Assembly (NCBI RefSeq): GCF_000174415.1
Contig: NZ_ACJM01000022.1
Location: forward strand, 1-37,395
Direction of reading: 5' to 3'
From: Dethiobacter alkaliphilus AHT 1
GTDB taxonomy: Bacteria; Bacillota; Dethiobacteria; Dethiobacterales; Dethiobacteraceae
Length of the DNA stretch: 37,395 nt
The notes under the pieces were generated by a model. It made no database searches and was not told the origin of the DNA. It was given only the letters and a program-made list of their open reading frames with translations. Below, piece by piece: positions 7,861-12,585 of this stretch; positions within the stretch are counted from its first letter, which is position 1; the number at the start of each line of letters is the position of its first letter. Position numbers and translations under genes: made by a program.

Positions 7861-7886
7861 ATAAAAAAAGCCAACTAAGTGTTGGC
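7861..7886 (-). terminator. Terminator of the M23 peptidase/bactofilin operon
   Basis: Read on the minus strand: GCCAAC, loop ACTTA, GTTGGC, then a long T run (7869-7861). The hairpin covers the bactofilin stop codon. The A run on the other side makes it potentially bidirectional. Confidence 0.88.
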
Positions 7887-8258
7887 TTTTTTCTGTACTT
7901 CTTTTCGTTCCGGTGCACGCTGCATAGAGCAGTTTCCGGTCAGCATTGCACCATCAGCCACATGGAGAGTATGAACGCTTACATCTCCTTCCACAACGCC
8001 CGTTGTCAACATTTCCAGTTTACCGCTGGCTTCAATATTGCCGACAACTCTGCCTGCCACCTGGATGTTATGGCCTTTCACGTTAGCCTGGATAACCGCA
8101 CCTTCTCCGATGATAATATCGCTGTCAATGTGCACTTCACCTTCCACGCCGCCATCGATGCGAACAGGGCTGTTGCCCTTCAGTGTACCTGCTATCATGG
8201 TTTCCTTTCCGATGACGGTAAGGATTTTATCTTCTTTGATTACTTTCTTACGCTTCAT
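7875..8258 (-). CDS. Bactofilin (polymer-forming cytoskeletal protein)
   Basis: 127-residue bactofilin (DUF583), a right-handed beta-helix protein that self-assembles into non-nucleotide filaments and often scaffolds cell-wall enzymes. The central region shows the family's repeating short hydrophobic strands with periodic Gly and Val (for example VRIDGGVEGEVHIDSDIIIGEGAVIQANVKG, then VAGRVVGNIEASGKLEM). Charged tails flank it, as usual (MKRKKVIKEDK at the start, EVQKKANT at the end). Its ATG overlaps the stop of the M23 peptidase gene by four bases (ATGA), so the two are translationally coupled. Bactofilin next to an M23 peptidase is a recurring pair in shape determination, which supports a joint cell-envelope role. 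Confidence 0.94.
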   Translation of the reverse strand: MKRKKVIKEDKILTVIGKETMIAGTLKGNSPVRIDGGVEGEVHIDSDIIIGEGAVIQANVKGHNIQVAGRVVGNIEASGKLEMLTTGVVEGDVSVHTLHVADGAMLTGNCSMQRAPERKEVQKKANT

Positions 8259-9130
8259 AGCCGGGGTGCCTCCGTTTCTATCATTTTAAGCGGATCAATA
8301 GGGGAACCGTTTTTATGGATTTCAAAATGCAGGTGTGGCCCGGTGGAATAGCCGGTATTACCAACCTGGCCTATTATCTGTCCCTTTTCAACCCGGTCAC
8401 CCGCCTGTACTTCAAAACTACGCAGGTGTGCGTAATGGGTGGAATATGTGCCATGGTCAATAATCACCAGATTCCCATACCCTCCCTGGAAACGGGCCCG
8501 TACCACTCTGCCTGCAGCTGCAGCCAGTACCGGCTTTCCAAAATTCCCCCCTCCTATATCGATGCCGCTATGGAAGGTATTGCGTCCGGTAAATGGAGAG
8601 GAGCGCCAACCAAAGGGAGATGTGATACGTCCCTGGGTAGGCATAATATTAGGGGTAACCTCTAATTTTTCTCTGACCGTAGCCACATCTTCCAACAGGA
8701 GCTCCATCTCCTGTGATTTTACAGGGATCCTTTCCTTTAAGTAGCCCAGCGTTTGCTCCGCATCATCTGCTACAGCAGGGGGGGCGGAGTTTTCTTCCAG
8801 GGAAGCTGCAGAAGGCATGATTTCCGAGACAAAGCCGCGCACATCCTCACTCAGCTCCTCCAGTTCTTCCATCTGGCCAATGAGGTTAACCAGTTTATCT
8901 TCCATCTCATCAAGCTCTGCCTGCAGCTGAATGTTTTCTTCCGTAACCAGAGGCATTTTTGCTGCAACTTCACCCAGTTTGCGGTTTGTGTGCAGCGTTG
9001 TGCCAATGGCAAGCAGGATAAGAATAGTTGCCGCCATGGCAAGGTAGACAGACTTTCCGGAAATATTGAAGTTTATCGGGGCATTTCTGCCTTTGGAAAC
9101 AATCATAATGGTAAAAGTACGGTTCTTCAT
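8255..9130 (-). CDS. Membrane-anchored M23 family metallopeptidase
   Basis: 291-residue peptidoglycan endopeptidase of the LytM/M23 class. A short cytoplasmic tail precedes one membrane span (about residues 27-46). An acidic coiled coil follows (about 60-100), then a Pro/Ala linker, then the catalytic domain (165-280). The zinc and catalytic signatures are intact: HSGID (H187, D191), THYAHL (H232) and HLHFE (H266, H268), so it should be active rather than an EnvC/NlpD-type activator. The ATG at 9130 follows ACAGGAGA. It overlaps bactofilin by four bases, and the bactofilin filament could position it in the wall. It is divergent from the redox fusion gene across a 234-base spacer. Confidence 0.93.
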   Translation of the reverse strand: MKNRTFTIMIVSKGRNAPINFNISGKSVYLAMAATILILLAIGTTLHTNRKLGEVAAKMPLVTEENIQLQAELDEMEDKLVNLIGQMEELEELSEDVRGFVSEIMPSAASLEENSAPPAVADDAEQTLGYLKERIPVKSQEMELLLEDVATVREKLEVTPNIMPTQGRITSPFGWRSSPFTGRNTFHSGIDIGGGNFGKPVLAAAAGRVVRARFQGGYGNLVIIDHGTYSTHYAHLRSFEVQAGDRVEKGQIIGQVGNTGYSTGPHLHFEIHKNGSPIDPLKMIETEAPRL

Positions 9131-9284: not shown

Positions 9285-9313
9285 TTGACAATTCAGCTTA
9301 TATCCTTTATTAT
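9285..9313 (+). promoter_or_regulatory. Promoter of the redox fusion gene
   Basis: TTGACA (9285-9290), a 17-base spacer and TATTAT (9308-9313). The start is expected near 9320, a few bases before the CsoR-like palindrome. Confidence 0.82.
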
Positions 9314-9324
9314 TAACACAAGAC

Positions 9325-9341
9325 ATACCCCCCTAGGGTAT
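9325..9341 (+). promoter_or_regulatory. CsoR/CstR-type operator
   Basis: The near-palindrome ATACCCCCCTAGGGTAT matches the GC-tract-centred, AT-flanked operators bound by the CsoR/CstR/FrmR repressor family (Cu(I), sulfane sulfur and formaldehyde sensors). It lies just downstream of the predicted start and before the AAGGAGGAAG ribosome site, where a bound tetramer would block transcription. No CsoR-family gene is in this window. Confidence 0.72.
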
Positions 9342-9364
9342 AGGATTGAGAAGGAGGAAGTATT

Positions 9365-10846
9365 ATGAAACGTCCTAATTATTTTATTAAAACCGAAAGA
9401 GCCTTTTCCGGCGTAAGGAAATCTGCCTGGATTGTAACTTTAGCAGTAGCCATAGGTGGTCAGTTTTACCCCCGCCTGGGGCTTCTGGTTCCTTTTATGG
9501 CTGCATTAATCGGTATGAGCTTTTTGAAGGGGAGGCACTGGTGTGGAAACTACTGTCCCCATGGTAGCTTCTTTGACTTTCTGTTGCTACCGATAAGCAG
9601 AAACAAGAAAATCCCCACTCTTTTAATTTCTAAAATCACCGTGGTTCTGTTTTTCCTGTTTTTTATGTTTAACCTTTCAAGACGCTTTTGGACAGTATTT
9701 CAAAATATCGCCAACATCTCTCTGTTAGACAGTGTGGGCATGATATTTTCAACCACCTATTTAATGGTACTGATTGTGGGAGGCCTTCTGGCAGTTTTAA
9801 TTACTCCCAGAACATGGTGCCAGTTTTGTCCCATGGGTACTATCCAGACTTTATCCTATAAGCTGGGTAAAGCCATAGGGTTGGCACAGTCGCAGGATGA
9901 AAAAGTCACTGTAGAACATGCAGATCTGTGCCACTCCTGCGGAAAGTGCGCCCGGGTCTGCCCCATGCAGCTGACCCCTTATAAAGAGTTTGAAGAAAAC
10001 AATAACCAGTTTAACGACGAACGGTGCATCAAGTGCAGCACCTGTGTTGAAAACTGTCCCGCCGGCATTCTTTCGCTGTCCACAGCCAAGCAGGCTGATG
10101 AGTTAAAGGAAAAAGCAGATCTCGACGGTTTTCAGGAAAGCGCATACTACAAAGGCGAAATCAAAGAAGTAAGAGAGCTTAAGCAGGATATCAAAGAGTA
10201 CACCATTAAATTACTGGCACCCGCCAAAATGAACTTAACGCCGGGACAGTTCATCTTAATTAAAATAGATGACGATTTATCCAGAGCCTATACCATTTCT
10301 TCGGCCAACAAAGAAGGGACGCAAATCAGCATAACCGTCAAAAGGCTGGAGGATGGCTACGGTACCAATCTTCTCTTTGATAAATTTAAAGAGGGTGACC
10401 GTGTAGAGATAAAGGGCCCCATGGGCAAAGAGCTGCGCATCGACCACAAAAAGAAGAAACTCCTCTTTGTAGCCAACGGTATCGGCATCACCCCATTTGT
10501 GGCCGCCGCACAAAACCTATTGGAATACAGAGACACGTACAACTTCGATGGAGACATTACCCTCCTGTATGGTGTGAGGTATGAGGATGACTTAATTTAT
10601 GACGATCTTTTCACCAGATTAGCCCGTAAACATCCAAATTTCCACTATTATAAAACCCTCTCCCGCCAGGACAGCATTAACGCCAGAAAAGGTTACGTAA
10701 CAAACATTCTAAATGAAATCGAAATAGATGCAGATACCACCGTCTATATCTGCGGTACAAAAGCCATGGCCCAAGATATTCAGAAAATCCTCCTGGAAAA
10801 AGGTATCCCGCAAGAATCCATCAGCTACGAAGACTTTGCAGCCTAA
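9365..10846 (+). CDS. NapH-type membrane polyferredoxin fused to a ferredoxin-NAD(P) reductase domain
   Basis: 493-residue electron-transfer fusion. Residues 1-165 form a NapH/CcoG-like membrane module with several spans and two CP motifs facing the cytoplasm: CGNYCP (C60, C64) and CQFCP (C152, C155). Residues 189-231 hold two complete [4Fe-4S] ferredoxin motifs (C189/192/195/199 and C221/224/227/231). Residues 262-493 are an FNR-type flavin/NAD(P)H module with RAYTISS (307-313), which binds the flavin, GIGITPF (372-378), which binds the nucleotide, and a terminal CGTKAM. The arrangement implies electrons moving between NAD(P)H and a membrane or periplasmic partner. ATG 9365 follows AAGGAGGAAG. 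The CsoR-like operator suggests induction by copper or reactive sulfur species. Its partner is not in the window. Confidence 0.88.
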   Translation: MKRPNYFIKTERAFSGVRKSAWIVTLAVAIGGQFYPRLGLLVPFMAALIGMSFLKGRHWCGNYCPHGSFFDFLLLPISRNKKIPTLLISKITVVLFFLFFMFNLSRRFWTVFQNIANISLLDSVGMIFSTTYLMVLIVGGLLAVLITPRTWCQFCPMGTIQTLSYKLGKAIGLAQSQDEKVTVEHADLCHSCGKCARVCPMQLTPYKEFEENNNQFNDERCIKCSTCVENCPAGILSLSTAKQADELKEKADLDGFQESAYYKGEIKEVRELKQDIKEYTIKLLAPAKMNLTPGQFILIKIDDDLSRAYTISSANKEGTQISITVKRLEDGYGTNLLFDKFKEGDRVEIKGPMGKELRIDHKKKKLLFVANGIGITPFVAAAQNLLEYRDTYNFDGDITLLYGVRYEDDLIYDDLFTRLARKHPNFHYYKTLSRQDSINARKGYVTNILNEIEIDADTTVYICGTKAMAQDIQKILLEKGIPQESISYEDFAA

Positions 10847-11912: not shown

Positions 11913-12170
11913 ATGAGCAAATTTGTAAGCCCTACGGTACGCGGGCAAGTTACAATCCCTACAGATGTACGAAAAAAGCTTCAAATAACGCCAAAGACTA
12001 AATTTAAGGTCTATGTTGAGGACAATAAGGTTGTTTTTGAACCTGTTTCAACAATTGACTTATTGCTTCGTGATTTGGAAAATGAGGCCCGTGCAAAAGG
12101 TTATACAAGAGAGGAACTTGAAAAGGAAATTGATACAGTCAGAGAAAAGCTGATGAACGAGTTATACTAA
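11913..12170 (+). CDS. AbrB/MazE-like antitoxin
   Basis: 85-residue swapped-hairpin DNA-binding protein. The N-terminal half (residues 1-45) carries the AbrB/SpoVT signature: SPTVRGQVTIPTDVRKKLQITPKTKFKVY, then VVFEPV. The acidic helical C-terminal half (LLLRDLENEARAKGYTREELEKEID) is typical of the toxin-binding arm. ATG 11913 follows GGGAGTGAGG. The PIN gene starts two bases after its stop, the standard antitoxin-first order; the antitoxin probably binds and inhibits the PIN protein and represses the pair. The block is more A/T-rich than its flanks and sits beside a tRNA gene, consistent with acquisition. Confidence 0.88.
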   Translation: MSKFVSPTVRGQVTIPTDVRKKLQITPKTKFKVYVEDNKVVFEPVSTIDLLLRDLENEARAKGYTREELEKEIDTVREKLMNELY

Positions 12171-12171
12171 A

Positions 12172-12585
12172 ATGAAAAGGATTATGTTGGATACAAACAT
12201 TCTTATCTCCGGCATCATATTTTCGGGAGTTGAGCGTAAACTGATTAATGTTTGCTGTTCAAGGGGGCATATCATAGTTATGAGCGAGTATATCATCAGC
12301 GAAGCGAATGCTGTTTTAAAGCGCAAATTCCCTGGCAAAGAATTTTTGCTCGATGTTTTACTAAATAAACTGGAAGTTGAAGTTATCAATATGCCGATGT
12401 CTTCAACGGTTGAAAAAGCCAGGAAATTGATTCGTGACCCTAAAGATGCAGCAATACTGGCATCCGCAATTGATGGAAAACCAGAAATTTTTGTAAGTGG
12501 AGATCTTGACTTCTATACTTCTGAGGTTGGTTCGGTGGTAAATGTAATTAGCACAAGAGATGCCTTGGCTCTTCTAAATGAATGA
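12172..12585 (+). CDS. PIN-domain toxin (putative RNase)
   Basis: 137-residue PIN-domain protein of the group often annotated as PIN-family toxin component. The acidic active-site set is visible: D7 in MLDTNILISG, E in YIISEANAVLK (about residue 44), then DPKDAAILASA and SGDLDF near 85-110, which should coordinate Mg2+/Mn2+ for RNA cleavage. The expected action is ribonuclease toxicity relieved by the upstream AbrB-like protein. The gene appears intact. The target RNA cannot be read from sequence. Confidence 0.88.
   Translation: MKRIMLDTNILISGIIFSGVERKLINVCCSRGHIIVMSEYIISEANAVLKRKFPGKEFLLDVLLNKLEVEVINMPMSSTVEKARKLIRDPKDAAILASAIDGKPEIFVSGDLDFYTSEVGSVVNVISTRDALALLNE

Follow-up and report, generated by a model that had tools for sequence, protein, structure and literature searches.

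A conserved CsoR/CstR-type operator before a NapH-ferredoxin-reductase fusion gene of Dethiobacter alkaliphilus, and the thiol and Fe-S regulon predicted from it

The DNA analysed here, referred to as the window, comprises 37,395 nucleotides of Dethiobacter alkaliphilus AHT 1 (contig NZ_ACJM01000022.1). It contains a gene for a membrane iron-sulfur protein fused to a ferredoxin and a flavin reductase (P0001), preceded by a promoter and a palindrome. The following features were recognised.

9285..9290, + strand: -35 box TTGACA, read in the sequence
9308..9313, + strand: -10 box TATTAT, separated from the -35 box by a 17-nt spacer, read in the sequence
9325..9341, no strand assigned: predicted CsoR/CstR-family operator ATACCCCCCTAGGGTAT (ATACCC-CCCTA-GGGTAT), from sequence, conservation and statistics
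9351..9357, + strand: ribosome-binding site (Shine-Dalgarno) AAGGAGG, read in the sequence
9365..10846, + strand: fusion of a NapH-like membrane 4Fe-4S protein, a 2x[4Fe-4S] ferredoxin and an FAD/NAD(P)H reductase, 493 aa (P0001), from domain searches
9494..9910 (approximate), + strand: NapH-like part with the motifs CGNYCPHG and CQFCPMG, from Fer4_5 and from motifs read in the translation
9914..10072, + strand: ferredoxin part, CHSCGKCARVCP / CIKCSTCVENCP, from Fer4_10 (residues 184-232) and Fer4 (216-236)
10157..10843, + strand: reductase part, FAD-binding at residues 265-355 and NAD-binding at 368-474, from domain searches

The palindrome consists of 17 bases, with 6-bp arms (ATACCC and GGGTAT) around a 5-bp centre. 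It begins 11 nt past the -10 box, covering about +5 to +21, and the ATG of the fusion gene follows at 9365. When up to three mismatches are allowed, it is the sole copy in the window, where 0.11 would be expected. Operators of the CsoR family are recognised at target promoters as a pseudo-palindrome TAC...GTA around a G/C run, and the site at 9325-9341 has this form. On the - strand, divergent from the fusion gene, the window carries genes for an M23 peptidase and a bactofilin (7875-9130), with roughly 150 bp between the start of the M23 gene and the -35 box of the fusion gene. At 11913-12585, an AbrB/MazE-like antitoxin is followed by a PIN-domain toxin-like protein.

The Pfam domains of the fusion protein are Fer4_5, found in two stretches of which the best covers residues 44-84, a Fer4 pair, FAD_binding_6 and NAD_binding_1. 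The initial annotation had described a NapH-ferredoxin-reductase fusion behind a palindrome lying between a TTGACA-17-TATTAT promoter and a ribosome site, and both the gene and the layout at 9285-9357 were borne out. The Fer4_5 motifs and the two 4Fe-4S ferredoxin clusters place the protein among the membrane ferredoxins of the NapH/NosR type. Since it scores 59.7 bits against the NapH subfamily model TIGR02163, which has a cut-off of 213, it is regarded as a relative of NapH and not as NapH itself. Like the NapH, NosR and CcoG polyferredoxins, it combines CX2-3CP-type motifs in its membrane part with a pair of 4Fe-4S ferredoxin clusters; unlike them, it continues into an FAD/NAD(P)H reductase at the C-terminus. 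None of the genes immediately around the fusion gene was recognised as nap, nos or cbb3. Its orthologues occur in two forms, full fusions and NapH-only proteins of about 250 aa, and their neighbours include genes resembling CoA-disulfide reductase (L040, L084, L097).

Conservation of the palindrome was assessed in 78 non-redundant upstream regions of orthologues, each of 120 nt, against the expectation from dinucleotide shuffles. The initial annotation had named lack of such conservation as evidence against an operator. A perfect ATACC-N7-GGTAT (10/10) is present in 20 of the 78 regions (0.02 expected), and 30 regions match at 9 or more of the 10 positions (0.64 expected). The conserved sites lie almost always 22-38 nt 5' of the start codon, before orthologues as low as 47% identity. 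They are kept upstream of fusion and NapH-only proteins alike, well past close kin. Some soda-lake Clostridiales carry the variant CCACCCCC..GGGGTGG at the equivalent position. A palindrome arisen by chance and without function is refuted by this conservation, as well as by the enrichment in genomes and the proximity to csoR genes described below; no point in its favour was found, and its probability is negligible.

In the D. alkaliphilus genome, exact ATACCC-N5-GGGTAT occurs three times, compared with none for the reversed control, and all three sites lie just 3' of a TTGACA promoter and just 5' of a gene. Twenty-five genomes chosen around the orthologues contain 45 exact sites vs 3 in the control. 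A second set comprised 200 relatives selected independently of the site, again with the reversed pattern as control. The 148 genomes with a CsoR-family gene hold 191 sites (25 in the control), and the 52 genomes that lack such a gene hold 16 (4 in the control). Presence of the site is associated with presence of CsoR (Fisher p 8e-7, a value that is not a strict probability, as the genomes are related). In addition, 24 of 75 listed sites have a csoR gene no more than 5 kb away, where 0.4 would be expected. The assignment of this palindrome class to the CsoR family, proposed in the initial annotation, is well supported by both the enrichment and the proximity, and 9325-9341 is confirmed, on sequence comparison, as a conserved CsoR/CstR-type operator. 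Other searches gave less. The looser TACCC-N3-7-GGGTA matched 19 times in the genome against 16 in the control and is uninformative alone. The hits of an 18-mer resembling the copper sites belonged to two types of site and were mostly chance matches, although the copA site was among them. A few sites fall within coding regions or 5' of unrelated genes (L182, L183, L188, L224), as expected by chance.

The palindrome could also act in the leader RNA, as a hairpin that stabilises the 5' end or controls translation. The leader is indeed able to form a short hairpin at the palindrome. However, its fold equals that of shuffled sequences (z 0.08), and the sites accompany CsoR genes. Moreover, in the promoters of glutaredoxin-like genes of other genomes the palindrome is located between the -35 and -10 boxes and is therefore untranscribed there. 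On the shuffle value and these untranscribed sites, the RNA explanation was rejected as very improbable.

The initial annotation had proposed a search for CsoR-family genes in the genome, their absence being its other refuting condition, and two were found (PF02583), named here L001 and L002. L002 adjoins copZ, and its leader carries ATATCCCCCCGGAGGGGGGTGG. The leader of copA carries TACCCCCTAGGGGGGGGAT after TTGACA-TATAAT. Both are G/C-rich sites of another form than ATACCC-N5-GGGTAT. L001, on contig C6, is found in the order csoR-mgtE-[site ATACCCCGAGGAGGTAT]-ccdA-tlpA, where the ccdA promoter reads TTGACA-17-GATAAT. A one-mismatch site lies 5' of ccdA in the same gene order in five further loci (L235, L236, L237, L238 and L240, although mgtE was not seen between csoR and ccdA in L240). 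The linkage csoR-mgtE-[site]-ccdA in six genomes is that expected of a cognate repressor. As a separate observation, the order csoR-mgtE-ccdA-tlpA is conserved in several relatives, with a magnesium transporter gene in the middle (L241:4500-6901). In a tree of the family, whose short alignment leaves the deep branches weak, L001 and its orthologues form a clade of their own, apart from the copper clade that includes L002 and M. tuberculosis CsoR.

The genes directly behind the sites indicate what such a repressor would control, regulon membership being predicted from site position only. In D. alkaliphilus, the sites precede the fusion gene, ccdA-tlpA and a 62-aa ferredoxin gene with a TrkA_C-domain membrane protein encoded after it (L195 / G000:C3:25921). 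Another ATACCC site precedes a HesB-like selenoprotein with an in-frame TGA, GGFGUGG (PF01521; L011:1551-1850, G000:C5). An FmdB-type zinc ribbon stands behind a weaker site with one arm mismatch. A near-consensus site lies before a gene with an in-frame TGA (RFSRUGAGTAVG), whose product is a small protein anchored in the membrane (L229:1554-1970; G000:C2:136322-136738). Homologues of this protein have a Cys-rich GGCGGCG at the TGA position, and it is possibly a new selenoprotein or else a broken gene. The sites in other genomes precede further HesB-like proteins with TGA in at least six genomes (L191, L194, L210, L213, L218, L220), glutaredoxin-like CPYC proteins (L184-L187, L189-L191, L208), DsrE (L206, L207) and CoA-disulfide reductase (L204, L219, related L222), in one case with a rhodanese domain. 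CcdA (L192), ferredoxins (L200, L201, L217) and FmdB (L199, L203, L223) are also found there. Thiol, sulfur or Fe-S genes make up the majority directly behind the sites, and CstR is likewise a regulator of sulfane-sulfur or thiol genes. No sqr, persulfide dioxygenase or tauE genes were seen behind the sites. In the Tissierellia, the DsrE-like and glutaredoxin-like genes occur as single genes under ATACCC sites (L206, L207, L184-L191).

The identity of the inducer has to be weighed against copper. In this explanation L002, or a Cu-sensing L001, would repress the fusion gene, which would serve in copper handling, e.g., by reducing Cu(II), a function proposed for CcoG, or by repairing copper-damaged Fe-S clusters. 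The C-H-C Cu(I) triad is present in both L001 and L002, and the closest match of L001 in the PDB is a copper CsoR. The local copA leader has TACCCCC-TAGGG in common with the window site, and cross-binding by L002 is possible because of the resemblance of TACCCCCTAGGGGGGGGAT to this site. In many other Bacillota, the identical ATACCC-N5-GGGTAT precedes copA or csoR-copZ and is accompanied by a copper-type CsoR (L258-L272), so that the palindrome alone cannot tell sulfur from copper. For the same reason, an earlier reading of the palindrome as a sulfur signal in its own right was given up. Across these loci, copper and sulfur repressors have one operator class in common. On the other hand, no ATACCC-N5-GGGTAT site precedes a copper gene in the D. 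alkaliphilus genome, where csoR-copZ and copA have the different sites described above. The site before the fusion gene is kept in two genomes, G004 and G017 (98-99% complete), which have an L001-type CsoR only and no copper-type one. Repressors devoid of the copper-ligand histidine accompany the same targets in other lineages. A copper operator is thus an unlikely second choice.

These His-less counterparts bear on the sensing chemistry. L001 has the arrangement C-x24-H-x3-C, with two cysteines 29 residues apart, corresponding to the x and z positions of CstR. At the y position CstR lacks a histidine, and L001 has one, so that L001 is called CstR-like in its targets and is not filed as CstR. 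The counterpart clade of the Tissierellia has C-Y-C, with Tyr for His, in 6 of 7 members, and a separate copper CsoR follows copZ. In the Syntrophomonadaceae, a C-F-C repressor, with Phe for the copper-ligand His, is encoded directly 3' of the fusion gene; often no other CsoR-family gene was found. It groups with 7mq1 (C-N-C; 57 bits vs 44 for copper CsoR 4m1p), which we take to be the S. pneumoniae CstR, named csoR in the PDB record. The y position is thus Asn in 7mq1 and His in L001. Operator and targets are kept even where the histidine is lost; it is thus dispensable, a point in favour of sensing via the two cysteines.

If L001 worked like InrS, RcnR or FrmR, the inducer might instead be formaldehyde or a metal other than copper (Ni, Co, Zn). 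InrS ranks second among the PDB matches of L001, and mgtE directly 3' of csoR could hint at a divalent metal. Nevertheless, L001 falls far below the curated cut-offs for FrmR (53.8 bits, cut-off 133) and RcnR (48.8 bits, cut-off 138), and no nickel, cobalt or formaldehyde genes were seen behind the sites; this possibility is improbable. Formaldehyde, one of the signals listed in the initial annotation, is unsupported, and a formaldehyde sensor was rejected on the FrmR score and the genes behind the sites. For the window operator, sequence evidence favours thiol or sulfane sulfur as the most likely inducer and copper as a less likely second.

Linkage to L001, the content of the regulon, the different local copper sites and the His-less counterparts are the reasons for a sulfur reading of the window. 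The site at 9325-9341 is probably (a probability of about two in three) the operator of a CsoR-family repressor, likely L001 acting in a CstR-like manner, that governs the fusion gene together with a thiol and Fe-S regulon. L001, the non-copper paralogue and most likely repressor, would bind just 3' of the -10 box and block transcription of the fusion gene. Persulfide, polysulfide or another thiol oxidant would modify its two conserved cysteines, and L001 would leave the DNA. The fusion gene would then be expressed along with the ferredoxin, the HesB-like selenoprotein, CcdA-TlpA and the FmdB zinc ribbon. The induced NapH-FNR protein may carry NAD(P)H electrons to the membrane via FAD and the 4Fe-4S clusters; the most plausible purpose would be removal of sulfane sulfur or repair of oxidised thiols or clusters.

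Several known systems resemble the one predicted here. In Streptomyces coelicolor, ScCsoR (SCO0620) binds ATACC-n6-GGTAT, an operator of the same class and one base shorter, and is released by polysulfide via Cys37 and Cys66, two cysteines 29 residues apart as in L001 (PMC7533328). ScCsoR targets a persulfide dioxygenase, a rhodanese and a sulfite transporter (PMC7533328), whereas in the present anaerobes the sites precede genes for Fe-S proteins, selenoproteins and thiol-redox proteins. The Enterococcus faecalis CstR controls a CoA-persulfide reductase (PMC9405070), and sites in relatives of D. alkaliphilus precede a CoA-disulfide reductase-rhodanese. Staphylococcus aureus has a persulfide-sensing CstR beside a separate copper CsoR, a pair comparable to L001 and L002; its CstR is thought to govern a single operon directly (PMC5480029), whereas the sites here are scattered over single genes, including those for NapH-FNR and the HesB-like selenoprotein. 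YrkD of Bacillus licheniformis is grouped with CstR as a persulfide-sensing CsoR paralogue (PMC9918477). In Thermus thermophilus, the second CsoR paralogue, TTHA1953, is also of the non-copper kind and governs sulfur and redox genes that are dispersed; the two paralogues have non-overlapping sites, and the copper CsoR does not bind those of TTHA1953 (PMC10318464). TTHA1953 differs in its operator, TACNNTACNNNNGTANNGTA, which has no G/C run, and in having Sox genes as targets (PMC10318464). The copper CsoR-copZA systems of Bacillota have the same 17-bp palindrome class at their promoters, but their targets are copA and copZ, and the copper sites of D. alkaliphilus differ.

The operator class is known; the regulon and its link to a NapH fusion appear to be new. 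The literature searched, outside which lay subscription journals and RegPrecise, contained nothing relevant on NapH with CsoR or on this set of target genes. A shared operator would give a testable role, in reactive-sulfur or thiol stress, to NapH-FNR fusions and HesB-like selenoproteins, two families that have had no clear role so far. It would also describe a CsoR-family regulon spread over single genes, as opposed to the usual one operon, and provide concrete candidate genes for polysulfide handling in polysulfide-respiring anaerobes. D. alkaliphilus AHT1 reduces and disproportionates sulfur and polysulfide, and its genome paper reported no psr and left sulfur reduction unexplained (PMC5609068). 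An anaerobe exposed to polysulfide is a setting that fits the sulfur reading. A more speculative and rather doubtful extension is that anaerobic Bacillota widely share a sulfane-sulfur regulon, so far undescribed and run by CsoR paralogues, in which the NAD(P)H-driven NapH-FNR and the HesB-like selenoprotein act as polysulfide or persulfide reductants. If true, the polysulfide-reducing machinery so far missing from the account of D. alkaliphilus would include NapH-FNR.
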